Positions 4,103-48,305 of a DNA stretch of 64,000 bases are shown one piece after another. Positions within the stretch are counted from its first letter, which is position 1. Each line of letters starts with the position of its first letter. The DNA is taken from positions 4,960,001-5,024,000 of the forward strand of contig NZ_JADBEM010000001.1 of NCBI RefSeq assembly GCF_014873875.1. The letters run 5' to 3'. The position numbers and the translations under genes were made by a program. The stretch comes from Actinopolymorpha pittospori (GTDB taxonomy: Bacteria > Actinomycetota > Actinomycetes > Propionibacteriales > Actinopolymorphaceae). The notes below the pieces were generated by a model, which was given only the letters and a program-made list of their open reading frames with translations, was not told the DNA's origin and made no database searches.

Positions 4103-4575
4103 CCCTCAGGCATGCATGAGAGGGGCGCGGCCACCTTCCGAAGGACGTCCGAGCTCGGAAACACCTGACGTGGCAGCGCCAGCTTGTGCTCACCGCACGG
4201 ACAGCTCCAGACCTCGTGCATGCGTCCCTCACGCAGAAGGCGGCAGCCGGCCGCAGAGAGATCGTCAGACGGGGCGAGCGAGCGAGCGGGTCCAACGCGA
4301 ACTTGGCGCCTCAAAGGGGTGGCCGTGGTCGCTCGAGGCTCAGCTTCCCGGATGTTCCACGCCGGCCGTTCCGTCCGGATGGCTTCCGTCTCGGCGGCGA
4401 TCGCCGCGGCGCGGGAGTCGTAGTGGTCGACCGTGATACGGCGTAGCGACGTCCACCAGGGCTTCTCTGCGGCGTGCTCACCAAGTCTCCTCGGCAGGCT
4501 GGCAGTGATGCCCACGTAGAGCAGGGCGCCGTCTTCATCGAAGAATCGGTAGAGCGCGTTCGGCTCACCCGTCAC
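4090..4575 (-). CDS. GIY-YIG nuclease domain protein
   Basis: 161 residues. ALYRFFDEDGALLYVGITAS is a GIY-YIG signature (LYR...LYVGIT), followed by LPRRLGEHAAEKPWW with the conserved Arg and His and by AAAIAAETEAIRTERPAWNI, which holds the catalytic Glu and the closing Asn. A C-terminal extension ends in a WSCPCGEH motif, possibly metal-binding. The chosen start is GTG at 4575, because GGGAGGAGG lies 4-6 nt upstream; the longer frame to 4677 runs back into the truncated FtsK region and has no such signal. Such stand-alone nucleases are common on actinobacterial integrative elements. It is cotranscribed with the HicB-like gene. Endonuclease activity is inferred from the motif. Confidence 0.8.
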   Translation of the reverse strand: MTGEPNALYRFFDEDGALLYVGITASLPRRLGEHAAEKPWWTSLRRITVDHYDSRAAAIAAETEAIRTERPAWNIREAEPRATTATPLRRQVRVGPARSLAPSDDLSAAGCRLLREGRMHEVWSCPCGEHKLALPRQVFPSSDVLRKVAAPLSCMPEGWLR

Positions 4576-4712
4576 GGTCCTCCTCCCGTCAGTCCTTGGG
4601 TTTGAGGCCCGGCACGTCACGGGCTTCTCCCAGGGCTTGTCCTTGCGTTCACGGTCATCTCGTACTGGTCCATCCACCGCCGGGTCGCGTCCAGGTTCCG
4701 CCAGCCCTGCGC

Positions 4713-5606
4713 CACATCGATGAGTCGCACGACCCGTTGAAGGACGCCGAGCTGGCTAGGGACTTCGCTGATCTGTCCCGGATGACCCGCAAGCTGGGCA
4801 TCTCCTACGTGGTCATCAGCCAGTACGCCGGGCTGCCGACGTTCGGCGGCCTGGAGCCGCTGCGCTCCAGCATTATGGCTGGCAACGCGCTGGTCATGTA
4901 CACGCGGTCGAAGTCGCCCGGCAATCTGATGGCCGGCTTGGAGGTCGACCCGCTGACGATCCCGCAGATCAAGGGGTACGCCTACACGATGCGAACCGGA
5001 GCGACCGGTCGTGTTGCCCCGTTCCGGAATCGCCTGATCACCAACCCCGCCGAGCGCTGGATCGAGGACGCACCGCGCTGGAGTCTGAACGAGCAGGACG
5101 CCGTGTGGGTGATGGAGGCGTACGCCAAACGAGCCACCGACGTGAGCCAGATCCGCGCGGCGCAGGGCGAGATCCTCCGGAAGGTCATGTCCGGCGAGAT
5201 CAGCCCTGAGGCTGCCATGGCCGGCGCCAAGTCCGCCGCGGAGGCGCACGACATCGTCCAGCGCGCGAGCGGTACCCCTGGCGCGATGCAGACCGGCCCG
5301 GTCGCCGAGCGGATGGAGGCGCTGGTCGGGTCGGTGCCGTCGTGGCCGGACGTTTCGGTGTCGGACATCAAGGCGCCGGTGAACGCCGAGGAGGCCGACA
5401 ACCAGGCGCGGATCATCGCGGCGATACGGGACGGTGCCACGAAGCCTTCGCAGATCGTCGCTGCGCTCGCGGTCGACGGCTGCGGTAAGGACCTGAAGGA
5501 TCGTCGGGTGCGGCAGCTCCTCACCGAGCTGGTGGCAGACGGGAAGGTCCACGACGGGGGCCAAGGCGTGTGGAAGCTGCGCGAGCAGGCCGGGAGCGCC
5601 GACTGA
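4713..5606 (+). pseudogene. FtsK/TraB-type DNA translocase, 5'-truncated
   Basis: From codon HIDESHD (4713) the frame matches the C-terminal half of FtsK/SpoIIIE-type conjugal transfer proteins of actinobacterial ICEs: the Walker-B-like acidic cluster, then SRMTRKLGISYVVISQYAGL (the 'GI..v..tQ' strand), RSSIMAGNALVMYTRS, and a C-terminal winged-helix-like region (IIAAIRDGATKPSQIVAAL ... DRRVRQLLTELVADGKV). The Walker A half is missing. The bases upstream (4596-4712) read as unrelated sequence, so a deletion joins this gene to the back of the GIY-YIG gene. Full-length proteins move double-stranded DNA hexamerically between mycelial cells; this remnant cannot. Its stop overlaps the next ATG (TGATG). 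Confidence 0.8.
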
Positions 5607-5770
5607 TGATGGGTCACACCCACGTGTGCACGGGTCTCACCGCCGGGGCCGGGTTGCTCCCGGCGGTGAGCCCGCTCCTGCACGGGCCGGTCGAGCAGCT
5701 CGCGTTCGTCGCCTGCTGCGGGGCCCTGGCTTGGGGCACGCGAAGGGCAGGCGGCCTTGTTTGTTCGTAG
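5606..5770 (+). pseudogene. Metal-dependent hydrolase (YdjM-like) N-terminal fragment
   Basis: MMGHTHVCTGLTAGAGLLPA resembles the N-terminus of membrane-bound metal-dependent hydrolases of the YdjM family (M..HTH...G...g), followed by a hydrophobic segment. It starts on the TGATG overlap with the FtsK remnant, as expected for an operon of the conjugative element, but stops after 54 codons where the sequence switches into the direct repeat at 5761. The rest of the gene (usually over 200 codons) is absent. Confidence 0.65.
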
Positions 5771-5821
5771 GGACAGGCAGGTTGGTCGCTCGCACTGCTG
5801 GCGTCGACCAGGTGCTCATCG
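5761..5821. repeat. Direct repeat copy 1 flanking the GNAT gene
   Basis: Begins TTGTTCGTAGGGACAGGCAG and ends GTCGACCAGGTGCTCATCG (5803-5821). The same two blocks recur at 6463-6537 on the other side of the GNAT gene; the 19-base end block is identical and the spacing between blocks differs by about 14 bp. Confidence 0.7.
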
Positions 5822-5914
5822 CCGGCCTTGCCGAGTGGTTTGTGTTCAGGTTTATCCTCGCCGCGTCCTGGCCAACAGTTAAGTTCGTTTGCAGGCTCGG
5901 TACGCTCTTACCCT

Positions 5915-6457
5915 GTGGCGCCCGAGGGTCTCAGTTTCAGCACGGCCGACAGCTCTGTTGCGCCAGAGATCTCCCTGCTTTTCAGCCAGGCGATCGCCTA
6001 CTCTCTCGGTACTGCGAAGCCGGTTGTGCCTGACTCTCAGTTCGTGGACAAGCTGCGCAGACGACTTGATGCGCCGGGCACGGTCGTTGTAGTCGGGAAG
6101 CGAGGGGACACGTGTGTGGCCTGCTGCTTCGGACAGCCACTTCGCCTGGCAGACGGCCAAGTCTCGGAGGTGGAGGCTCATCTGAGTCTTGTCGCGGTCG
6201 CGCCCTCGTATTGGGGCCAGGGCTACGGCACGGTGCTAATGCAGTTCGCGGAGGAGTCATTTGAGGTCGCTGGATATATACGTGCCCAGTTACATGTACT
6301 ACAGGCCAACACAAGAGCACGGAACCTGTACGAGCGTTGTGGTTGGTCGTTTCTCGGAGCCGGTGAGCCTCACGAGGACGGTCCTCAGGTGGTGTACGGG
6401 AAGCAGTTCGCTGCGGGCCCACAGCCGTCCGAGGGTTCGGCCATAGGAGCGTGTTGA
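5915..6457 (+). CDS. GNAT-family N-acetyltransferase
   Basis: 180 residues. The acetyl-CoA-binding core is LSLVAVAPSYWGQGYGTVLM (motif A, the P-loop variant Q-x-G-x-G replaced by WGQGYG), followed by LHVLQANTRARNLYERCGW, the helix and strand typical of GNATs that acetylate small molecules or protein N-termini. The chosen start is GTG at 5915; a TACGCT -10-like hexamer lies 9 bp upstream, so translation may be leaderless; the longer open frame to 5828 has no signal. The gene sits alone between two copies of an imperfect direct repeat (5761-5821, 6463-6537), with slightly lower GC than the surroundings, suggesting it arrived as a unit. The substrate is unknown; antibiotic or amino-sugar acetylation is possible. 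Confidence 0.85.
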   Translation: MAPEGLSFSTADSSVAPEISLLFSQAIAYSLGTAKPVVPDSQFVDKLRRRLDAPGTVVVVGKRGDTCVACCFGQPLRLADGQVSEVEAHLSLVAVAPSYWGQGYGTVLMQFAEESFEVAGYIRAQLHVLQANTRARNLYERCGWSFLGAGEPHEDGPQVVYGKQFAAGPQPSEGSAIGAC

Positions 6458-6462
6458 GTTTC

Positions 6463-6537
6463 TTGTCCGTAGAGGCAGGCAACCTGATCGCGACGTGCTC
6501 GTCCGCGCTCCGAGGCTCGTCGACCAGGTGCTCATCG
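6463..6537. repeat. Direct repeat copy 2 flanking the GNAT gene
   Basis: TTGTCCGTAGAGGCAGGCAA starts the copy and GTCGACCAGGTGCTCATCG (6519-6537) ends it, matching 5761-5821. It begins six bases after the GNAT stop codon. Confidence 0.7.
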
Positions 6538-6761
6538 TCGCACGCCGGTGCAGGTTGTTGGGGTCAGGCGGAGAGACAGTGTGCCGCCGCTTGACCGTCC
6601 CTCTCGTTGTCCTCGGCTAATGGCCCGCTTATGGCCCGGCTGATCTCGTCCGTGACCTGGCCGCGGCCGGCGCCCCCATCAGGGTGGCGGGGCTCCTTTG
6701 AAGGGAAGGTGGCGTGGCGCGCGATCTGTAGGAGCGCCACCTCTCCTTTAGGAGAATCACT
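6538..6761. other. Non-coding stretch before the iteron-like array
   Basis: No credible gene. The only open frames have neither ribosome binding sites nor family motifs. It ends in AGGAGAATCACTTGAATCACC, the entry to the repeat array. Confidence 0.5.
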
Positions 6762-6933
6762 TGAATCACCCCTAAAACCGCAGGTCAGAGGCGGTGTCCA
6801 GGAGCCGTGAATCGCGAAAGGGCGTGAATCATGAATCACTTCGGCGTTTGCGCAGGTCAGTGGGTGATTCAGGGGTCGTGAATCAGCGTGAATCAGGCGA
6901 ATCCAGGGGTGGTGATTCAGCGCCCGTGAATCA
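6762..6933. repeat. Iteron-like array of TGAATCA / TGATTCA
   Basis: TGAATCA occurs at 6762, 6825, 6832, 6879, 6889 and 6927, and its complement TGATTCA at 6865 and 6913, plus a near match TGAATCG at 6808: eight exact heptamers in 172 bp. Spacing is irregular (7-48 bp), direct and inverted. This density is far above chance and resembles iterons of a replication origin or a cluster of regulator sites. It lies just downstream of a minus-strand helix-turn-helix reading frame (6971-7177). No CRISPR-like regular spacers. Confidence 0.7.
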
Positions 6934-6970
6934 CCCATACGCGCACGTTTGTCCGTTTCGGGCTTGAGCC

Positions 6971-7177
6971 TCATGCGGCGCCCTCCTGGAGCTGGCCACG
7001 GAGCGCCTGGTGCTGCATCGAGTAGGTGCCGAGGATGCGGGACACGGTGACCTGGGAGATGCCGGTGGCCGTCGCGATCTCCCGCTGCGACAGGTCCTTG
7101 CCGGCGTCGACGACGCACTTCCGGATCTGCTGCCACCGGTACTCGCAGTCGGACGGACCAGGGCCACTCGCCGCCAC
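6971..7177 (-). pseudogene. Helix-turn-helix protein, probable remnant
   Basis: 68 codons from a GTG. DLSQREIATATGISQVTVSR is a clear helix-turn-helix (recognition helix ISQVTVSRIL), preceded by EYRWQQIRKCVVDAGK. The protein is too short to be a full regulator, and another minus-strand frame immediately upstream (about 7190-7330; WPEFGLWLDADGTVEHWRGD) reads like a coding segment, suggesting that one longer gene was broken by a frameshift near 7180. The iteron-like array lies 38 bp downstream. A replication initiator or repressor of a mobile element is plausible but unproven. Confidence 0.5.
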
Positions 7178-7338
7178 GCATCAACAGGCTCGGCCAGGAC
7201 CGTTCGTCGCGGTCGCCGCGCCAGTGTTCGACGGTGCCGTCGGCGTCCAACCAGAGCCCGAACTCAGGCCAGCGGCGCCACCCAGACCATCCGACGGGGC
7301 GGGTGGGGCGCTTCTTCCCAGCCAAGAACTGGCCACCA

Positions 7339-7692
7339 GTGGGGACACTTTCATGGCCATGGACACTTGTCGAGTTGGAATGCGTCGAGTACGGCTGGGC
7401 GATGCTCGGCTGGGTCGACGAGCGCGCAGACAATGACGAGCTGCGGGCGCAGTACCTGGCGATCCTGAACCGGGTACGTCGGATCGACAGCCTCCTTGAC
7501 CACCTGGACGGCTGCCTGCAGGGCCTGGAAGACGTCCTCACCGAGTCGCGCTCGGGACCTCAACAAACGAGCTTCGCCGCGAAACCACCATGCGCCCGGA
7601 AACGGTCCAGGCCGGCTCCCGCGCCCACGGCGCTGCTCGATCGCCGCCACCTCACCTCCGATGCCCCCGGTCGAGGTGTGAGGGAGGTGTAG
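7339..7692 (+). CDS. Hypothetical coiled, acidic protein
   Basis: I do not recognise a family. The central part (VEYGWAMLGWVDERADNDEL ... YLAILNRVRRIDSLLDHLDG) has a strongly amphipathic helical pattern and good actinobacterial codon use; the C-terminal third is low-complexity Arg/Pro/Ala. The start is uncertain: the GTG at 7339 is used, a TTG at 7375 is an alternative, and the frame stays open further upstream without signals, so the 5' end may be truncated. Its stop (GTG TAG) lies 2 nt before the next ATG, and that gene's GAGGGAGG ribosome binding site lies inside this one, so the two form an operon. Confidence 0.45.
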   Translation: MGTLSWPWTLVELECVEYGWAMLGWVDERADNDELRAQYLAILNRVRRIDSLLDHLDGCLQGLEDVLTESRSGPQQTSFAAKPPCARKRSRPAPAPTALLDRRHLTSDAPGRGVREV

Positions 7693-7694
7693 CG

Positions 7695-8171
7695 ATGACA
7701 CAAGTGGCGGGCAGCTATATGGTGCCGCCGGTCAGCTGGTCGATGCGGTTCACCGAGCTCGCACGACTGGCTGGCAGTGCGGTGCAGGCACAGGCCACCT
7801 CGCAGCCCGGTCCGCTGAGCGATGCCGATGTCCGCGACCTGGCCTACGACGTGCAGATGCTGGCGGCTGCGGCTGATGAGTGGGCGCTGGAAGCTTCCCG
7901 TCTCGCTCAAGACGCGAAGGCCACGGCCGAACACGTCCTGAACAAGAACCTGGGAACCGTTGTCGGTTCGACCTCGCTGCAGATCGAGCTGAACCGGCTC
8001 GCTCAACACCTCTACGGGATCCCCCAGCAAGAGGCGGAGCCCGGGACGACAACGGAACAGTCTTCACACAGAACCGTTGTTGATGGACGGCCATCTTTGG
8101 GGCGCGCCGTGAACACCATCGCCGCGGCCGTCGTCGTTGACCTGATCCGCTCCCGGGGCGGTGCCCGATGA
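7695..8171 (+). CDS. Hypothetical alpha-helical protein
   Basis: 158 residues with an excellent start: GAGGGAGG 7-8 nt before ATG 7695. No family recognised. The middle (VRDLAYDVQMLAAAADEWAL EASRLAQDAKATAEHVL in two successive stretches) is strongly helical with heptad-like spacing; the C-terminus has a short hydrophobic segment (VNTIAAAVVVDLIRS) which is too weak for a confident membrane anchor. The gene follows the preceding hypothetical by 2 nt, and its stop overlaps a further ATG (8168) that opens a 20-codon peptide rich in Arg and Cys (8168-8230), possibly a truncated third gene. Context is the accessory region between a decayed conjugative element and detoxification-type genes. Confidence 0.6.
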   Translation: MTQVAGSYMVPPVSWSMRFTELARLAGSAVQAQATSQPGPLSDADVRDLAYDVQMLAAAADEWALEASRLAQDAKATAEHVLNKNLGTVVGSTSLQIELNRLAQHLYGIPQQEAEPGTTTEQSSHRTVVDGRPSLGRAVNTIAAAVVVDLIRSRGGAR

Positions 8172-8399
8172 CCGTCCGGACCGTCACGTGCGTGGAGATC
8201 ACGTGCCGACGCGGCGGACGCCGCTGCTGACGCGCTCACCGGACCGCGCGAGGCTGGGTCTGTCCGGACTTTGTGCGACGGCCAGGTGGTGCGTCATGAG
8301 CCGCCTGTACCGCTGGACCGATTACCGGCACGCGCCGTGTCTAATTGCACGCCAGTTGCACGCCGGTCGGTCGCCACCTTGTTAGGGCGCCGATAGATT

Positions 8400-8413
8400 G
8401 CTAGCATTCTAGC
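8400..8413. promoter_or_regulatory. Palindrome over the start of the RHH-VOC operon
   Basis: GCTAG-CATT-CTAGC, a perfect 5-bp dyad with 4-bp centre, ends two bases before the ATG at 8415. CTAG is rare in this sequence. No Shine-Dalgarno precedes the ATG, so the transcript is probably leaderless, and this dyad is well placed as the autoregulatory operator of the ribbon-helix-helix protein encoded next. A direct repeat TTGCACGCC x2 (8345-8353, 8357-8365) lies 35 bp upstream. Confidence 0.5.
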
Positions 8414-8414
8414 T

Positions 8415-8582
8415 ATGCCGGAGCCAGAGAAAGTTCAGTTCAATGTCTACCTCCCGCGTGATCTCGTCACGCAGGTCAAGCACCGCGCGATCGACGAGGG
8501 TCTCTCGCTGAGTGTCCTCGTCGAGCGGGTCATGCGCAGCTACGTCGACAACGTGACCAACACGAAGGGAGCGAGCCGATGA
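8415..8582 (+). CDS. Ribbon-helix-helix (CopG/Arc-type) DNA-binding protein
   Basis: 55 residues. [20 protein letters not shown] begins with the DNA-contacting beta-strand (QFNVYLP), followed by two helices around [20 protein letters not shown]; this is the full CopG/Arc dimerisation fold. Length is typical of antitoxins and plasmid copy-number repressors. The stop codon overlaps the start of the next gene (ATGA at 8579-8582), so the two proteins are coupled. It has no upstream Shine-Dalgarno and begins immediately after a palindrome (8400-8413) that may be its own operator. Partner gene is a VOC-fold protein instead of a known toxin. Confidence 0.8.
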
Positions 8583-8935
8583 TCTCCTCCGCACCAATCC
8601 GTTTCACCGCGAACATCGACCAGATGCGCAGGTTCCTCGAACTACTCGGGTTCGAGGCGCACATCATCTCCGAGGAGCACGGCTGGGTTGAGATGCGTGG
8701 CGACGTCAGCATCATCAACCTCCACGGCGCCGACCGCGAAGAGAGCTCCGTCGTGTTCGACACCGACGAGCCGCTCGAATCCCTCCAGAAGCGTCTCCAG
8801 GACGCCGGGTTCAGCGACGCGCACATAACCGATGAAGCGTGGGGACGCATGCTCGAGGTCACTGACCCGCAAGGCGAGTCAGTCTGGATCAACGAGCGAA
8901 TGAACGACACCTACGGCTACCGCGTCGTCGACTGA
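8579..8935 (+). CDS. VOC-superfamily (glyoxalase/bleomycin-resistance-like) protein
   Basis: 118 residues in one babbb-type module: [20 protein letters not shown] (strand, helix), [36 protein letters not shown] and [16 protein letters not shown] with the terminal Glu that usually binds metal in glyoxalase-type enzymes. Single-module length fits dimeric VOC proteins that bind or modify small toxic molecules. It overlaps the ribbon-helix-helix gene by 4 bp. Resistance or detoxification is inferred; the alternative is a sensor/partner of the RHH regulator. No second VOC copy nearby. Confidence 0.8.
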
Positions 8936-8990
8936 GATTCGGACGTCTATCGCTCGTGCAGGCTGCTCACGCCCTGGACTCTGGCGCAAG

Positions 8991-9073
8991 ATGGACGATC
9001 ATGGACCCGGCTGGCAGGTCGCAAGCCTGCTTGTAATCGGGTGACTGCTGAACCGACCTCTCTTGAGGTCAAG
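8991..9073. repeat. 83-bp direct repeat, copy A
   Basis: Starts ATGGACGATCATGGACC and ends TTGAGGTCAAG. Copy B (9406-9488) has the same length with 13 mismatches, about 84% identity; both are followed by GCGCCG(C/T)TGACGCG. Confidence 0.85.
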
Positions 9074-9240
9074 GCGCCGCTGACGCGGCGCACCACCCGG
9101 CTACCGCCCTTGCGGGCGGCGCTGGGGCGCCGTCCTCGGACTCACCGGGCGGCACGGAGGCGCAGAAGCAATAACTGAGGCCGGTCGACACGGGTTGGGC
9201 GTCGCACCTATCCGACCGCCCCGTCCTCCTCGCATGCCAG

Positions 9241-9300
9241 TCTCCGGCCTGCACTCCACGCGTCAAGGGCGCCTGCCGGCGTCGCTTCGCGATCTTCGAC
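9241..9300. repeat. Interspersed repeat, intact copy
   Basis: TCTCCGGCCTGCACTCCACG through GTCAAGGGC (9241-9270) recurs at 11007-11036 with one mismatch, and the following GGCGTCGCTTCGCGATCT recurs at 15413-15430 as GGCGTCGCTCGGCGATCT, beyond the three-IS array. It therefore serves as the empty-site reference for that array. Confidence 0.8.
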
Positions 9301-9405
9301 AACGACCCGGGGTGACCACGATGCCTGACCAGGCGACAGCACCGTACACAGTTCGCGCGCTCGAGCCATCGCTCGCGGGCCGCTCGCCCCTGGGTCCCGC
9401 ATGAG

Positions 9406-9488
9406 ATGGACGATCACGGACCTGGCTGGCGGGTAGTAGGCCTGCTTGTAATCGGATGATTGCCGGGCCGACCTTTCTCGAGGTCAAG
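9406..9488. repeat. 83-bp direct repeat, copy B
   Basis: Same length as copy A (8991-9073), 70 of 83 bases identical. It ends 74 bp before the second GNAT gene. Confidence 0.85.
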
Positions 9489-9562
9489 AGCGCCGTTGAC
9501 GCGACGCGGCGCGCCGTCCTCGGGCTTACCGGATGTTGGCGCTACCGCCTAGCGTGATCGCC

Positions 9563-10057
9563 ATGACAACCTGTTGCGTAGTCCGACCGGAGACAGCCGC
9601 AGACATCGCCCGCGTCGCCGACGTCACCCGCCTTGCGTTCGGTGGGCGCCAGATCGAGGTCGATATGGTCGCCGCGATCCGGGCGTCGGACGAGTACGTT
9701 CCAGAGCTTTCCCTCGTGGCCGAGGTGGACGGCACCGTTGTCGGGCACTGCATGCTCGGCCGCAAGGCCCTGCTCGGTGTCACTGCCCCACCGGTGCTGG
9801 CCCTCGGTCCGCTCAGCGTTCTTCCGTCATGGCAGCGACGCGGCATCGGAAGCCAACTCGTGTCCACAGCTCAACAAGTCGCCACGCACCGGGGGAAGGA
9901 AGCGCTCATCGTGCTCCTCGGCCATCCGGACTACTACCCGCGCTTCGGGTTCCTCCCAGCCCGCGACTTCGGCATCCGGCCAGACTGGCCCGCAGCCATG
10001 GCCTACCCCTTGCTACCCGATCTCTCGAACTACCGTGGGGCCGAGATTCCGCACTAG
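9563..10057 (+). CDS. GNAT-family N-acetyltransferase (YhbS-like)
   Basis: 164 residues. LGPLSVLPSWQRRGIGSQLV is motif A with the Q/RxxGxG/A pyrophosphate loop; LIVLLGHPDYYPRFGFLPAR is the diagnostic YhbS-type motif ('vlGdp.YY.rfGF'). The ATG at 9563 is chosen over an upstream ATG/TTG at 9533 because conserved residues start directly after it (CCVVRPETAADI); no Shine-Dalgarno is visible. Substrate unknown; members of this group acetylate small amines or tRNA-linked targets. It lies immediately after the 83-bp repeat and before a broken kinase gene. Confidence 0.85.
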   Translation: MTTCCVVRPETAADIARVADVTRLAFGGRQIEVDMVAAIRASDEYVPELSLVAEVDGTVVGHCMLGRKALLGVTAPPVLALGPLSVLPSWQRRGIGSQLVSTAQQVATHRGKEALIVLLGHPDYYPRFGFLPARDFGIRPDWPAAMAYPLLPDLSNYRGAEIPH

Positions 10058-10124
10058 GGAGGCTTCCGTCCACCGCGCGGTAAACCTGGTGACGAATCGA
10101 GTCTGGTCTTGTCACAGTGTCCGG

Positions 10125-10849
10125 ATGAACTCGGCGTTCGACACCCGCGACCAGACGAAGCCCCGCCTGGTCATGCTTTCCGGTTCCTGTGCGGGCATCG
10201 GCAAGTCGACGCTTGCCGAAGGGCTCACACGCAGGCTGGAGGAAGCAGGTGCGACCGTCGACCTGTTCGGCGAGCACCAGATCTTCGCCCGAGCCGACTT
10301 CGTCGACGTCGCGGAGGCTTTCCGCAGCAGGGAGTTTCCGACACCCGAGCTCTTCCTGCCCACGTACACGCGGGTCTTCGACGGCTTCCGGGCCGCAAAC
10401 GCCTGAGGTGTGTTCGACTGGCACTGTGCAGGCATGGCGGCCGACCTTCCGTGGGCGATGCGGGACCACGGTCGGCTTGCGCGGCTTGCCTGGATGTACG
10501 AGAGCTCGCGGAGGACATGGATCCCGTCCTCCTAGACCTGGCCGGTGATGTGCGGACGGCGACCGAACGGGCGCTTGCCCAACGTGGTGACGTGTGGGCG
10601 AAGCGCTACGCACGCCTCGCGAGCGACGCCGGTCACACGTCTGGGCGCATCGCTGAGCGGATCGTGGCGTGGTCGCGAGATCAGCTGGGCGGGCTGCGGG
10701 AACAGGAGCTCGCGGCCATGCGGTCGGCGGGCTGGCCGATCGTAGAGTTGGACGCGATGGCATCGGCTGCTGAGGTCCTGGAGCAGGCGTGGGATGCCCT
10801 GGGCCTCGGCCGGTCCACAGCGCTCCCGTCCCCGTGCGTAACGGGTTAG
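10125..10849 (+). pseudogene. P-loop kinase (AAA/zeta-type), broken
   Basis: The first frame (10125-10406, 93 codons) has a clean Walker A, LSGSCAGIGKSTLAEGL, and substrate-binding helices, but ends in TGA at 10404. In the same frame beyond the stop the sequence still reads FDWHCAGMAADLPWAMRDHG, and the remaining C-terminal part (ELAEDMDPVLLDLAGDVRTA ... IVELDAMASAAEVLEQAWDA) is in another frame from about 10485. Joined, these make a nucleotide or small-molecule kinase of about 235 residues. At least one nonsense and one frameshift lesion are needed, so it is a decayed gene, not a sequencing slip at one place. Position: downstream of the GNAT gene on the same strand. Confidence 0.7.
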
Positions 10850-20680: not shown

Positions 20681-21398
20681 GGCGCCGAGCTTGGCATGCC
20701 CTCACTGCGTGCTACAAGATCCCCAGAGCCGAGCGACATCACGGACCGTGCCCCCGCAGGTCGATGGCGCTCTTGCTGGGCGCTCCTTGGGTGCGCCAGA
20801 ACCAGACGTTCTGGGCGGACGCCGTAACCCTTACTCAGGAGCGCGGTGGCCGCACCGATCGACGGTTCTGCGCGGCTTGGCAAGACGGTCGACACCGGGA
20901 GCAATGATCAGAACCTGTGGATGGCCCTCGGCCTGATGACGTGAAGGGACGCACCTTCCCGAGGAAGATCTGGAATCCATAGCTGTCTGATCAGGGCCGG
21001 CGTTGGCGCGCCGGTTCGGGAAGGTACGTCCGTGCTCGAGGTAGTCCAGGAAGAGGCCCAGTCCCACCACCAGCACGAGCCCGAGACCGTACTCGCCCTC
21101 GACGCCGTTGGTCGGGCGCAAGATCGCCGACCCTACTGCCGGCGGACGCATCGTCGTCTCACCCGGCAAAGCGGCGATCAATTCGACCCACATGCCTCGA
21201 TCATGCCGGACGAGCTTGCGGACGATCCACGCTCAGCGCAGCGGGACGAGGCGGCGACCTGTGCTGACCCCAGCGTGACCCCAACGACCTGCAACATCCG
21301 GCGACGATGAGCACCTGGTCGATGACCTCCGAAGCGCGCACAAGCAGGCCGTGATCAGGGTGCTCGGTCCTACGGATCTGATGGTCGCCGGGTGGCGT
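20681..21398. other. Stretch without a supported gene
   Basis: The best open frame is minus 20831-21193 (120 codons), with one hydrophobic segment EYGLGLVLVVGLGLFLDYLE and no recognisable domain; its C-terminal half is low-complexity. I cannot support it as a gene. Short inverted matches (GAAGGTACGTCC/GGACGCACCTTC) lie at 20941-21027. Confidence 0.4.
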
Positions 21399-43702: not shown

Positions 43703-43742
43703 GGGAGTGTCAAGTTAACGGTTGATCTTGGTTTGTAGGGGT

Positions 43743-43883
43743 TCAGTTGTTGGCCGGGGTGAGGCGGCCTTCGAAGGCGATCTGGAAGGCGTTGAGCGGT
43801 GCCTTCCAACGCTGGGTCCATCGTTTGCGGCCCTGGCCGGTGGGGTCCAGGCTCATCAGCGCCATGTAGACGCACTTGAGTGC
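43743..43883 (-). pseudogene. IS256-family transposase, C-terminal piece
   Basis: Minus strand, 46 codons: ALKCVYMALMSLDPTGQGRK, RWTQRWKAPLNAFQIAFEGR and LTPANN then TGA. This is the standard ending of IS256/Mutator transposases (the 'lk.ly.a.......rW...w..aln.f.i.f..R' helix). The reading frame is cut at 43883 where the IS30 sequence GGGTGGATTCAACC begins. Confidence 0.85.
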
Positions 43884-43930
43884 GGGGTGGATTCAACCGG
43901 TCAAGTCTTGGTGGTCGGCCTGCGATTCCG

Positions 43931-44633
43931 ATGGCGGTACAGCGCGAGTTCTGGGCTGGGGTGCGCTCTGGAATGGTGGTCGCCGAAGCAGCGGCTTCTG
44001 TCGGAGTGTCGATCACCGTCGCCTGGCGATGGTTCCGGCACGTTGGCGGAGTGATGCCCGAGCCTTTCCCCGCTGGCAAGACCCCGATCCGCGCGCGCCG
44101 ACTCTCCTTCCAAGAGCGGGAGGAGATCAGCTGCCGCCGGGCCGCGGGCGAGGGGGTGCGTGCGATCGCGCGAGAGTTGGGGCGCTCCCCTTCGACGGTG
44201 AGCCGGGAACTGAGGCGCGGAACAGTTCGCCAGAAGTCGGGCTACCGGGCGTCGGTGGCCCAAGCGGTGGCGGATCAGCGTGCCCAGCGGCCGAAGGCGA
44301 GATTGCTCGCGCTCGACGACAGGCTCCGCGAGCACGTGCAGAATCGGCTGCATGCCAAGGACAGCCCTGAGCAGATCAGCCGGCGGCTTGCGCTGGTCTT
44401 CCCCGACGACCCGAGCATGCGCGTGAGCCACGAGACCATCTACCGCAGCCTCTACGTGCAAGGCCGCGGCGGTCTGCGACGGGAGTTGATCAAGTGCCTG
44501 CGCACCGGGCGGGCACTACGCAAAACCCGGCGGACTGCCGAACGGCGAGGGCGCATCCCCGGCATGGTCGGCATTGCGCAGCGACCGACGGATGCCCTGG
44601 ACCGTGCGGTGCCAGGACACTGGGAAGGAGACC
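43931..44633 (+). CDS. IS30-family transposase, exon 1 (interrupted by intron)
   Basis: From ATG 43931: MAVQREFWAGVRSGMVVAEA and SVGVSITVAWRWFRHVGGV (first helix-turn-helix), then SFQEREEISCRRAAGEGVRA and IARELGRSPSTVSRELRRGT (the IS30 helix-turn-helix), LHAKDSPEQISRRLALVFPD, SHETIYRSLYVQGRGGLRRE, ending ALDRAVPGHWEGD. That last Asp is the first catalytic residue of the IS30 DDE domain. One base after its codon the group II intron begins. Unspliced, the frame runs 18 more codons into the intron and stops at 44689, giving an inactive protein. Spliced, it continues LITGAENKSAVGTLVERSTG. Confidence 0.88.
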
Positions 44634-45305
44634 GTGCGACACGAAGCCGCACGAATTTGAGTGGACTGTCCAGTTGGAGAGGCGGTTGATAAGGCCGTAG
44701 GTGCAGTCACGGGTCTGTGTCCGTATGGCCCGTCCCCGCCCTTGACGTGCGACGCCGGTAACGGGGTGGTGCGAAGCTCAGGGGAAAGCCCAAGGACTCC
44801 CGTTCCATCCGGGAGTTACAGGCAAGGGGAAGACCGGACGGGTGAACGAAAGTGAACTCCCGATGATGCCTCGTGATCCCAAGCCTCGCCGATGGAAGTT
44901 CTTAGTGGGGTGTATGGCTAGCCGTTGTGAAGCGGTAGGCGCTGGCTGGTAGAGGTCACTCCGGCCAGGTGGACACCGCCGCCTCGGGGTAAAGGGAGCA
45001 CCCACCCCGGTCGTATCTCATTCGTGTGGAACGTGGAAACCCCGTTGGGGTCCGGGCTGTTAGGAGCCCGGTCGGCCGACTGTGAGGAAGGCTAAATTCC
45101 CCAGCGGGAACAGGATGACCCAAGAAGCCAATGCCGGAAGCCGAAAGGAAACGGGAACCCGGGGCAGTATGGCCGGCCTCTCCGCCGGCCGCCCCGCATA
45201 ACCGTCCGGATACGGGTGTGCTGCCCGGCCCGAAAGGGTGCTGACGTGGGCCAGGTGAGCCTGTGCAGAGATCACTGAAGAAAGACGACGGAACCGAGGG
45301 GCAAG

Positions 45306-47117
45306 TTGGACACCATGTTGATCGCGGGACGGAACGGCCTCGGTCGTTCTGCCGCCTCCGCGCTGGTGAACGGACCCGAGGGCGAAGACTTGGACTGGGC
45401 GTCGGTTGACTGGCGGCGGGTCGAGGAAGACGTACGACGTCTGCGGCAGAGAATCTTCACGGCATCGCAGGCAGGGGACCTGAGGAAGGTCCGCAATTTG
45501 CAGAAGCTGATGCTTCGGTCCCGCTCGAACACGCTCCTGAGCGTGCGACGGGTGACGGAGATCAACGCGGGACGTGCGACGGCGGGAGTCGACGGGAAGG
45601 TGGTGTTGCTTTCCCAGTCAAAGGCCGCTCTGGCCGACTGGGTCCAGCACCGTGCCCGACCGTGGATTCCCTGGCCCGTCAAGCGGGTGTTTATCCCCAA
45701 GCCGGGGACGAAGAAGAAGCGCGGGCTCGGGATTCCAGTGATTGTTGAGCGATGCCTGCAAGCTGTGGCATTGGGTGCACTGGAGCCCGAGTGGGAAGCG
45801 CGGTTCGAGCCGAAGTCGTATGGCTTCCGGCCTGGCCGCGGCTGTCACGACGCGATCGGGGCCATCTACTCCACGCTCAACGGGAAGAACCCGCAGCGTG
45901 CGTGGGTGCTCGACGCTGACCTGACGGCGGCATTCGACCGTATCGACCATGCCCGGCTCATGGCGGCGCTCGGCACCTTCCCAGCCCGGGGACTGGTCCG
46001 GCAGTGGCTGAAGTCCGGGGTCGTGGATCGCGGTCGGTTCGCCCCGACCGAGGAGGGAACTCCGCAGGGCGGGTTTATTAGCCCTTTGCTCTTCAACGTG
46101 GCCTTGCATGGGATGGAGGAAGCCGCAGGGGTCCGCTATTACACCTCCGGCAGAGATGCCGGGAGTGCGCAGAGCGGTAGCCCCGTGCTGGTGCGGTACG
46201 CAGATGATTTTGTCGCGATGTGCACCAGCCGTGAGCAGGCCGAACAGGTCAAGGAACGGCTGGCGGTATGGCTGACGCCCCGGGGGCTCGCCTTCCACGA
46301 GGGCAAGACACGCATTGTCCACGCGGAGAGCGGGTTCGACTTCCTGGGATTCAATGTCCGCCGCTATCACGGCAAGCTGCTGATCAAACCGAGTGCAGCG
46401 GCTCAACGACGGATCCGGGAACGGCTGCGCACCGAAATGCTGGCCCTGCGAGGGGCCAACGCTGGTGCGGTACTCAAGAAGATCAACCCGATTGTGCGGG
46501 GTTGGTCGGCCTATTACCGGACGGTGGTGTCCAGCGAAATCTTCACGGCGCTGGACAGCTACATGTGGAAGCTCGCTTACAAGTGGGCCAAGCACGGCCA
46601 CCCGAACAAGCCGAAGCACTGGATCTGCGACAAGTACTTCGGCCGGTTCAACAAGACCAGGAGGGACCGATGGGTGTTCGGTGACCGCGACAGCGGCGCC
46701 TACCTGCTCAAGTTCTCCTGGACGAAGATAGTCCGGCACCAGTTGGTCAAGGGGAAGGCGTCCCCGGACGACCCCACCCTGGAGTCATACTGGGCTCAGC
46801 GGCGCCGCAAGGGAACACCTCTGCCAGTCGCCGCTATGACCGTGCGCCTCCTACAGGCTCAACACGGCCGCTGCTCGGTCTGCGGAGGGCTCCTGCTGCA
46901 CGCCGACCACCCGCCACAAAGCCCACAAGAATGGGAAGCATGGCGGGTCGTCATCCGGAAGGCGATCTCCAAGCAATACATCGCATTCCCGGAGGAGAGC
47001 ACGCCTGGCGATCAACGAGTCCGTCTCCTCCACACCCATTGTCAACGGCGGAACGGAGCCGCCGTGATGACGAGTCCCGCACCTTCTCCTGCCGGTGCGC
47101 CTTTCGGGCTTGCTTGA
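45306..47117 (+). CDS. Group II intron reverse transcriptase/maturase with HNH domain
   Basis: 603 residues from TTG 45306 (GAGGGGC 6 nt upstream; ATG 45315 is the alternative). RT0-RT7 are complete: VDWRRVEEDVRRLRQRIF (RT0), VKRVFIPKPGTKKKRGLGIP (RT1-2), SYGFRPGRGCHDAI (RT2a/3), VLDADLTAAFDRIDH (RT3 Asp), EEGTPQGGFISPLLFNVALH (RT4), VRYADDFVAMC (catalytic YADD, RT5), GKTRIVHAESGFDFLGF (RT6-7). Maturase X domain: NPIVRGWSAYYRTVVSSEIF and LAYKWAKHGHPNKP. C-terminal Cys/His endonuclease: CSVCGG ... LLHTHCQRRNG. The stop TGA (47115-47117) lies in the first nucleotides of domain V, a compact arrangement. All catalytic residues are present, so mobility is plausible. Confidence 0.93.
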   Translation: MDTMLIAGRNGLGRSAASALVNGPEGEDLDWASVDWRRVEEDVRRLRQRIFTASQAGDLRKVRNLQKLMLRSRSNTLLSVRRVTEINAGRATAGVDGKVVLLSQSKAALADWVQHRARPWIPWPVKRVFIPKPGTKKKRGLGIPVIVERCLQAVALGALEPEWEARFEPKSYGFRPGRGCHDAIGAIYSTLNGKNPQRAWVLDADLTAAFDRIDHARLMAALGTFPARGLVRQWLKSGVVDRGRFAPTEEGTPQGGFISPLLFNVALHGMEEAAGVRYYTSGRDAGSAQSGSPVLVRYADDFVAMCTSREQAEQVKERLAVWLTPRGLAFHEGKTRIVHAESGFDFLGFNVRRYHGKLLIKPSAAAQRRIRERLRTEMLALRGANAGAVLKKINPIVRGWSAYYRTVVSSEIFTALDSYMWKLAYKWAKHGHPNKPKHWICDKYFGRFNKTRRDRWVFGDRDSGAYLLKFSWTKIVRHQLVKGKASPDDPTLESYWAQRRRKGTPLPVAAMTVRLLQAQHGRCSVCGGLLLHADHPPQSPQEWEAWRVVIRKAISKQYIAFPEESTPGDQRVRLLHTHCQRRNGAAVMTSPAPSPAGAPFGLA

Positions 47118-47150
47118 GCCGTGTGCGGTGAATAGCTGCTTGCACGGTTC
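47116..47150 (+). ncRNA. Group II intron domain V
   Basis: GAGCCGTGTGCGGTGAATAG and CTGCTTGCACGGTTC form the short two-stem hairpin with AGC-like catalytic triad region (GAGCC...GGTTC closing pairs, bulge, GAAU tetraloop region). It is the most conserved part of group II ribozymes and is 35 nt long here, one longer than the usual 34. Confidence 0.8.
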
Positions 47151-47157
47151 TGAGGGG

Positions 47158-47191
47158 GCGGGGACGCAGTAATGCGTCCCCGCTACCCGAC
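47158..47191 (+). ncRNA. Group II intron domain VI and 3' splice site
   Basis: GCGGGGACGCA (47158-47168) pairs perfectly with TGCGTCCCCGC (47173-47183). Adenosine 47185, seven bases before the intron end, is the candidate branch point, though it lies just outside the stem instead of bulged within it, which may mean hydrolytic splicing or an alternative pairing. Confidence 0.65.
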
Positions 47192-47709
47192 TCATCACTG
47201 GCGCGGAGAACAAGTCCGCGGTCGGAACCCTCGTGGAGCGCTCCACCGGCTACGTCATGCTCCTGCATCTGCCGAACAGCCACGGTGCTGACGACGTCCA
47301 GGAAGCCATGGTCGAGACAATGAGCGAGCTGCCGCAAACCCTGCGCCGCACCCTGACGTGGGATCAGGGGCAGGAGATGGCTAACCACGCGGCCATCGCG
47401 AAGGCTGCGCAGCTTGAGATCTACTTCTGCGACCCGCACTCGCCCTGGCAGCGGGCAACGAACGAGAACACGAACGGCCTGCTGCGTCAGTACTTTCCCA
47501 AGAGCACCGACCTGTCCGGCTACCACCGCGACTACCTCGAGTTCGTCGCCGCGCAACTCAACAACAGGCCACGCAAACGGCTCGGCTGGCGCACCCCTGC
47601 CGAAGCGCTCGACCAGCTACTCTCAGATCAAGACAACCCGCCCGGGCGGTTGGCGACCTGCCCGTCGCGGATCTTGACGTTGATGGCGTCCACGAACAGG
47701 ACCGGGTAG
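47192..47709 (+). CDS. IS30-family transposase, exon 2 (C-terminus replaced)
   Basis: Continues exon 1 in frame: LITGAENKSAVGTLVERSTG, YVMLLHLPN, then TWDQGQEMANHAAIAKAAQL with the second catalytic Asp and PWQRATNENTNGLLRQYFPK with the catalytic Glu; YLEFVAAQLNNRPRKRLGWR and TPAEALDQLLSDQDNPP close the domain. From 47646 the frame runs in antisense IS256 sequence for 21 codons to TAG 47709, so the natural C-terminus is missing by a few residues. All three DDE residues would be in a spliced product of about 406 residues. Confidence 0.85.
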
Positions 47710-48256
47710 ACGCGGTCGAGAGGGCGGTTCTGCCATTCGGCCATGCCGTCCATCACCTTGTCGGTGATCGTGGAGATGGTCTGTTTGGACACCTCGGCCC
47801 CATAGACCTCGGCCAGGTGCGCGGCGATCTCCCCGTGGGTGAGCCCTTCGCCGACAACGACAGGACCATCTCCTCCACCCCGGTCAGGCGCCGCTGCCGC
47901 TTGCGGACGATCTGCGGCTCGAAGGTGCCGGCCACATCGCGCGGGACCTTCACCTCCACCGGGCCGACGTCAGTCAACACGGTCTTGACGCTGGCGCCGT
48001 TACGGCTGTTGCCGCTGTTCTTCCCCACCGCATCGTGCTTGTCGTAGCCGAGGTGGTCAGTGGTCTCGCCCTCCAAAGCCGACTCCAGCACCCGCTTGGT
48101 CAGCTGCTGCAGCAGCCCGTCCTCCCCGGTCAGCTGCAGGCCCTCGCTACGGGCCCGGTCCACGAGCATCCCGATCAACTGCTCGCCCGACGCTGTGCTT
48201 GACAGCGCCTCGACAGGCTGCTCCACCGACTCAGGCGCAACGGCGGTCTCGGTCAT
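47646..48256 (-). pseudogene. IS256-family transposase, N-terminal piece (frameshifted)
   Basis: ATG 48256 begins MTETAVAPESVEQPVEALSS; QLTKRVLESALEGETTDHLG, YDKHDAVGKNSGNSRNGASV and DVGPVEVKVPRDVAGTFEPQ are standard IS256 N-terminal motifs. After LTGVEEMVLSLSAKG the frame shifts by a missing C (about 47850) and the continuation EIAAHLAEVYGAEVSKQTIS ... VLFVDAINVKIRDGQVANR, with the first catalytic Asp, is in another frame. It then ends abruptly at the IS30 remnant (47646). Together with the piece at 43743-43883 it defines one split gene. Confidence 0.85.
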
Positions 48257-48305
48257 CTGGCGTCTCTCCCTTGATCAACAGATCCGCCGTTATTTTTACA
48301 GTCCC

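Follow-up and report, generated by a model that had tools for sequence, protein, structure and literature searches.

A group II intron nested in IS30 and IS256 in Actinopolymorpha pittospori, and its probable homing to conserved transposase codons

The window analysed here, a stretch of 64,000 nucleotides from Actinopolymorpha pittospori (positions 4960001-5024000 of a single contig of 10,562,590 bases), carries a group II intron that interrupts the transposase gene of an insertion sequence (IS) of the IS30 family, which itself lies within an IS of the IS256 family. The features of this nest are given below in window coordinates, where EBS and IBS denote exon-binding and intron-binding sites and ORF an open reading frame.

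43703..43885, minus strand: IS256 remnant including one terminus, 98% identical to the intact IS256 copies at 820465 and 10271043 of the genome
43886..44633, plus strand: IS30 left end and transposase exon 1 (NF033563 and PF13936 on ORF 43880-44689)
44621..44625, plus strand: IBS2, TGGGA, exon positions -13 to -9 (covariation, 55 introns)
44628..44633, plus strand: IBS1, GAGACC, exon positions -6 to -1 (covariation, 55 introns)
44634..47191, plus strand: group II intron of 2558 nt (GTGCG...CCGAC; same ends in copies and relatives)
44877..44881, plus strand: EBS2, TCCCA (covariation, 55 introns)
44954..44959, plus strand: EBS1, GGTCAC (covariation, 55 introns)
45306..47117, plus strand: reverse transcriptase/maturase of 603 residues with C-terminal CxxC...HxxC domain (profile matches)
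47114..47191, plus strand: intron domains V and VI with A47185 unpaired (RF00029, fold)
47192..47642, plus strand: IS30 transposase exon 2, without right terminal repeat (NF033563 on ORF 47233-47709)
47643..48305, minus strand: IS256 remnant with transposase N-terminus and the other terminus, 97% identical to the IS256 copy at 821183 (NF033543, PF00872)

That a group II intron lies in an IS30 which in turn lies in an IS256, as a preliminary description of this DNA had put forward, is confirmed, all elements of the nest being found in place. Both IS256 remnants are 96-98% identical to two other genomic copies, the left edge of the IS30, GGTGGATTC, lies at the point where the IS256 match ends, and the profile transpos_IS30 (NF033563) is matched by each of the two IS30 exons separately. 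The described 2558-bp intron with its GTGCG...CCGAC boundaries and domains V and VI is likewise borne out, since its ends satisfy the GUGYG/AY rule (GTGCG at 44634, AC ending at 47191), as do those of its relatives, and since the region 47114-47191 matches Rfam RF00029 with 51.6 bits (gathering score 40) and folds with a z of -7.58, equalled in stability by none of 200 shuffles, leaving A47185 unpaired. The reverse transcriptase (RT) reading frame is uninterrupted over its 603 residues, has YADD at residue 298 and matches RVT_N, RVT_1 and GIIM (PF13655, PF00078, PF08388) as well as TIGR04416 (score 306.4, cut-off 300). Its closest match of solved structure is 6me0_C (E = 3.3e-99), which we take to be the TeI4h protein, and going by this nearest solved relative the intron may belong to the group IIB/chloroplast-like class. 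The gene had been described as a complete RT-maturase-HNH gene, and the RT and maturase are indeed intact, whereas the HNH part amounts to a CxxC...HxxC pattern that the window intron shares with most of the 13 relatives aligned to it (loci L068 and L086 lack the pattern), no Pfam HNH match being found in the ORF. Elsewhere in the genome there are 13 other matches to group II-type RTs, all from different families than this one (5036284, 5129476, 7090098, 2379084 and nine others), several of them equal-scoring.

Removal of 44634-47191 restores the IS30 reading frame as had been proposed, the ligated exons GAC-C/TC-ATC (a slash marks the insertion site here and below) reading GHWEGD-L-I-T-G with the intron in phase 1. 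We take the aspartate at the junction to be the first catalytic residue, and in keeping with this a Pfam rve match, albeit one below the Pfam cut-off, starts at residue 269 of the spliced protein of IS30-A, another IS30 type described below, in which the aspartate is residue 278. Intronless IS30 relatives, which the preliminary description had predicted to equal the ligated exons, were found to do so and continue uninterrupted through the insertion site. Both the junction and these empty relatives show that splicing is needed for a full-length transposase, the gene of which is interrupted by a phase-1 intron.

The IS30 copy of the window should nonetheless not move even if spliced, because it lacks its right terminal repeat and because bases of the surrounding IS256 have been lost. 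Complete IS30 relatives end in a repeat containing GTGTTGC and have about 64 nt following the GWRTPAE motif, whereas in the window 38 nt separate this motif from the resumption of IS256. No right terminal repeat was recognisable in the window IS30, the complementarity between its left and right ends being 12 (shuffled median 14, 95% point 19) as against 29 for IS30-A and 29 and 38 for two plasmid relatives, each of which exceeds the 95% point of the corresponding shuffles, and a looser-scored alignment of the window ends was likewise without signal (26, the shuffles averaging 25). Homology to the closest match on a plasmid, from Curtobacterium (71% identity), reaches within four bases of the break in the window IS30, and beyond it this match continues with the repeat that is missing from the window copy. 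Furthermore, 535 bp of intact IS256 (reference 820465-821846) are missing between the two window remnants. The length of exon 2 was dropped as a sign of the lost right end, since a shorter protein explains part of the difference. With the right end of IS30 and part of IS256 lost, the IS of the window is therefore a dead end, and splicing might here restore a trans-acting transposase, not the mobility of the element itself. The notion that transposition would depend on splicing follows from the anatomy, but it is not supported for the window IS30, which is without its right repeat, and the divergence of exons and introns considered below points to dispersal of the IS copies before the intron entered them.

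Guide sequences were sought in an alignment of 55 introns, limited to their first 720 bases, as stretches with more complementarity to the upstream exon of the same intron than to those of others. Intron positions 321-326 against exon -6 to -1 (EBS1) gave a difference of 2.40 pairs with the next best at 0.57, and positions 244-248 against exon -13 to -9 (EBS2) one of 2.31 with the next best at 0.60. Over the 37 distinct exon ends of the 55 introns, and with poorly pairing rows included, 328 of 407 positions are paired, whereas 20,000 permutations yielded a mean of 172, a maximum of 228 and no value as high as that observed; both guides, the pairing of which had been offered as a check on the intron, are hence supported by covariation. 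Among introns of the IS30 clade, the contacts of EBS2 cover the Trp codon and bases 1 and 2 of the Glu codon, and those of EBS1 extend over the Gly and Asp codons to base 1 of the Leu codon. EBS1 has a single mismatch, shared by the window copy and the IS30 clade, at base 3 of the Gly codon, and in two places a G of the IS30-clade guides is opposite a position that is C or T. When one intron was taken for each of nine target classes, with class labels and frames assigned by us, Watson-Crick contacts were present at 57 of 66 first and second codon positions as against 18 of 33 third positions (one-sided p = 0.0008). Shifting the frame gave p values of 0.98 and 0.98, and the largest p among 960 choices of representatives was 0.008. 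Tolerance at the third codon position provides a simple reason for conserved protein motifs being durable homing sites. The base preceding EBS1 was tried as a partner of exon position +1, but it fits the IS30 clade (A-T) and few introns beyond it, and no IBS3 partner was therefore assigned.

Three other copies of the intron (A, B and C; L009, L010 and L011) are found in the same contig and differ from the window intron by 2, 2 and 3 bases, respectively. They occupy the same codon in IS30-A, and while the intron is 99.92% identical between the window and IS30-A, the aligned exons are 52.5% (500 nt) and 63.6% (400 nt) identical. In A, B and C the IS30 is complete, both of its ends being present along with duplications of 3 bp (CAA, CTC and CTG), and among them the variable columns number 10 of 928 in exon 1, 0 of 525 in exon 2 and 1 of 2,558 in the intron; no intronless copy of IS30-A was found in this genome. 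Streptomyces sp. NBC_01549 holds seven IS30 introns in three IS30 types, which differ just in the length of a T-run at 425-427. Copies of the same IS differ by 27 exon substitutions versus 1 in the intron, summed over five comparisons in two genomes (four of them in NBC_01549) with gap columns left out and L042 used twice, and the simplest reading is therefore that the intron would mostly have entered, and recently so, IS copies that were already dispersed. Exon identity and intron identity were also compared by rank correlation (136 pairs; 0.20 and 0.31), but the correlation is weak and the pairs are not independent, and it was not used. A total of 72 related loci, all from actinobacteria, were collected, of which 21 align to the window intron at 87% or higher, and IS30 at the HWEGD/L codon is the site of all 20 of these with at least one resolved end.

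From these sequence comparisons we consider it very probable that a mobile group II intron recognises the HWEGD-L codons of IS30 transposases by way of EBS1 and EBS2 and homes into the IS30 copies of a genome. Having paired its two guides with these conserved codons, the intron would insert by reverse splicing and target-primed reverse transcription, its splicing would then yield a working transposase mRNA, and the movement of IS30 would be limited by the requirement for splicing. The window copy would be such an insertion into an IS30 lying in IS256, the right end of the IS30 and part of the IS256 having been lost at some time. Site occupancy is high in most carriers examined. Pattern matching identified four filled and no empty sites in the genome of the window. 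A survey of 392 Streptomyces genomes found the site in 102, and among the sites listed, 150 in 83 genomes counted by hand (the listing does not cover the other 19 genomes), 139 are empty (79 genomes), with the Leu codon following directly and without an intron, and 11 are filled, these being found in four genomes (7, 2, 1 and 1) that have no listed empty site.

Some observations weigh against homing as the full account. The carriers G002, G008 and G009 mix filled and empty sites, so saturation is not universal and a strict all-or-none occupancy, as the Streptomyces sites had suggested, was rejected, and in two of these carriers the introns look damaged (L056 with 7 stops, L038 with its first 31 nt unmatched). 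In the genome of the window, furthermore, one damaged IS30 fragment contains a core site that is empty, and one intact IS30 has GAC/TGC. Of the distant introns, some pair poorly at the assigned guides (L088, L091 and L102), and TnpB targets do so at EBS2. Lastly, neither the final 190 bp of exon 1 nor the 525 bp of exon 2 vary among A, B and C, and recombination with co-conversion may therefore have contributed in these copies.

That homologous recombination should account for the copies in place of retrohoming, filled copies having converted empty ones with co-conversion of the exons and perhaps after cleavage by the intron protein, would agree with the changes among A, B and C beginning 191 nt upstream of the intron and with the uniformity of exon 2. 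It is nonetheless improbable, since recombination cannot explain near-identical introns in IS30 types with exons only 50-70% alike, and since an exon change in NBC_01549 (L039/L044) is just 17 nt away from the intron. Still poorer prospects attach to the idea that IS30 and intron multiplied as units, each move needing a spliced transposase mRNA. The completeness of A, B and C with their 3-bp duplications, to which L039, L044 and L046 conform by eye, the failure to find an intronless IS30-A in its genome, and the transposase frames, open on either side in the majority of copies of the IS30 clade, would all be in agreement with such a course. However, duplications would also arise from movement of the IS prior to the arrival of the intron, the window copy is without a right repeat, and because most of the substitutions that separate copies of one IS fall in exons (27 versus 1), unit transposition was set aside as the main source of copies. 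That the nest is an inert relic or an assembly join, as the damage to both the window IS30 and IS256 could suggest, is highly improbable given the intact intron and RT, the three near-identical copies elsewhere in the same contig and a junction common to relatives in many genomes.

Beyond IS30, a separate search of the exon pieces of more distant relatives identified targets in IS4 (L054), IS701 (L068), IS110 (L058) and IS1380 (L098), in IS5 (L074) and IS630 (L064), the last two below cut-off, and in an rve integrase core (L086) and TnpB (L077). The exon pieces of L096 and L091 gave weak helix-turn-helix matches only, and those of L090, L072 and L101 no family match. Several junctions are in motifs that we take to contain catalytic acidic residues, namely YHERW/.E in IS4, EECF/ in IS701, SWANPI/ in IS630 and EATSGY/W in IS110, whereas the sites in IS1380, TnpB and methyltransferase genes are not. 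The methyltransferase genes, of PCMT type, are interrupted by the same lineage outside obvious mobile DNA (L070, L071 and L081, with EVGSG/GYNAAL in L071). In an RT tree of 51 rows the 12 target labels require 11 changes, the minimum, which none of 200 label shuffles attained, and the targets mostly form one clade each; in this tree support for joining the IS1380 pair is weak (69/16), the bootstrap is unsettled, L056 is a long frameshifted row, and the labels of rows without a family match of their own (e.g. L053, L066, L069, L072, L073, L087, L090 and L102) are our reading of the flanks. One relative of the intron, in L096 at 4295-10380, is split by approximately 3.6 kb of other sequence within the RT region.

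The filled IS30s are themselves often found at a conserved motif, since A, B, C, L043, L044, L046 and L075, out of 24 intron-bearing IS30s examined, lie at the HSDRG motif of an IS3-type transposase. Similarly, 13 of 19 matching IS30 left ends from 14 Streptomyces genomes directly follow H[ST]DxG codons according to our own translation, although the search pattern required G or C at the first flanking base, which slightly favours His codons. A and C occupy the same place in two related IS3-type elements in opposite orientation, with duplications CAA and CTG.

We give about even chances to a wider reading, in which an actinobacterial intron lineage would have radiated by re-aiming EBS1 and EBS2 at the codons of conserved motifs, frequently catalytic ones, in a wide range of unrelated transposase families. 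The guides, firm at codon positions 1 and 2 and tolerant at position 3, would in effect read a protein motif irrespective of synonymous codons, the intron could come to occupy almost all members of an IS family within one genome, and with filled IS30s often residing in the IS3-type HSDRG motif a chain of parasites aimed at active-site codons would result. With its target classes, which mostly follow clades and have matching guides, the comparative set makes it testable how group II introns gain new targets, and likewise whether an IS family is silenced in genomes where the intron has filled the majority of its copies.

It is established that group II introns retrohome through the pairing of EBS with IBS and that they insert into IS elements. 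For RmInt1 in ISRm2011-2 of Sinorhizobium meliloti, splicing is stated to be essential for the mobility of the IS and the intron is argued to limit IS dispersal (PMC4238363). There too a group II intron is found within an IS transposase gene (PMC4238363), but the IS is another one, and RmInt1, of type IIB3/class D, has no endonuclease domain in its protein (PMC8914252), whereas the window intron interrupts the HWEGD codons of IS30 and has an HNH-like C-terminus, which would speak against class D. Because splice-gated IS movement has been published for RmInt1, the window offers a natural instance of a retroelement that would gate a DNA transposon, as the preliminary description says, but not the first one. 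Intron-in-IS nesting is likewise already known, and taken by itself the window nest adds a further example of it. In Enterobacteriales, E.c.I4 and other introns that target IS elements are described as inserting position-specifically in several IS with variable saturation, and the saturation of some genomes as well as a divergence under 1% within strains resemble the present introns; the IS family is however another, and the passages concerned do not treat codon positions or one lineage across many transposase families (PMC3522654). For TeI3/TeI4 of Thermosynechococcus elongatus it is reported that families with different EBS form separate clades and that certain introns target a conserved site, either of an IS or of another intron; where inner elements were identical and the outer ones diverged, the insertions were interpreted as recent and independent (PMC2882425). 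The logic of dating by nested introns is the same as in our exon/intron argument for the IS30 copies, while TeI3/TeI4 concern one cyanobacterium and the present introns an actinobacterial group with mostly conserved transposase motifs as targets. Ll.LtrB, found in a conjugative relaxase gene, is alike in that the intron restrains its host mobile element by EBS/IBS contact with the mRNA, the difference being that this host is a conjugative element and not a DNA transposon (PMC6003770). In the open-licence literature we found no description of an intron at the IS30 HWEGD codons, nor of third-position tolerance or of one lineage across so many transposase motifs.

Elsewhere in the window, Rfam Ms_AS-8 is matched at 20924-20995 on the minus strand with a score of 50 (gathering score 48).
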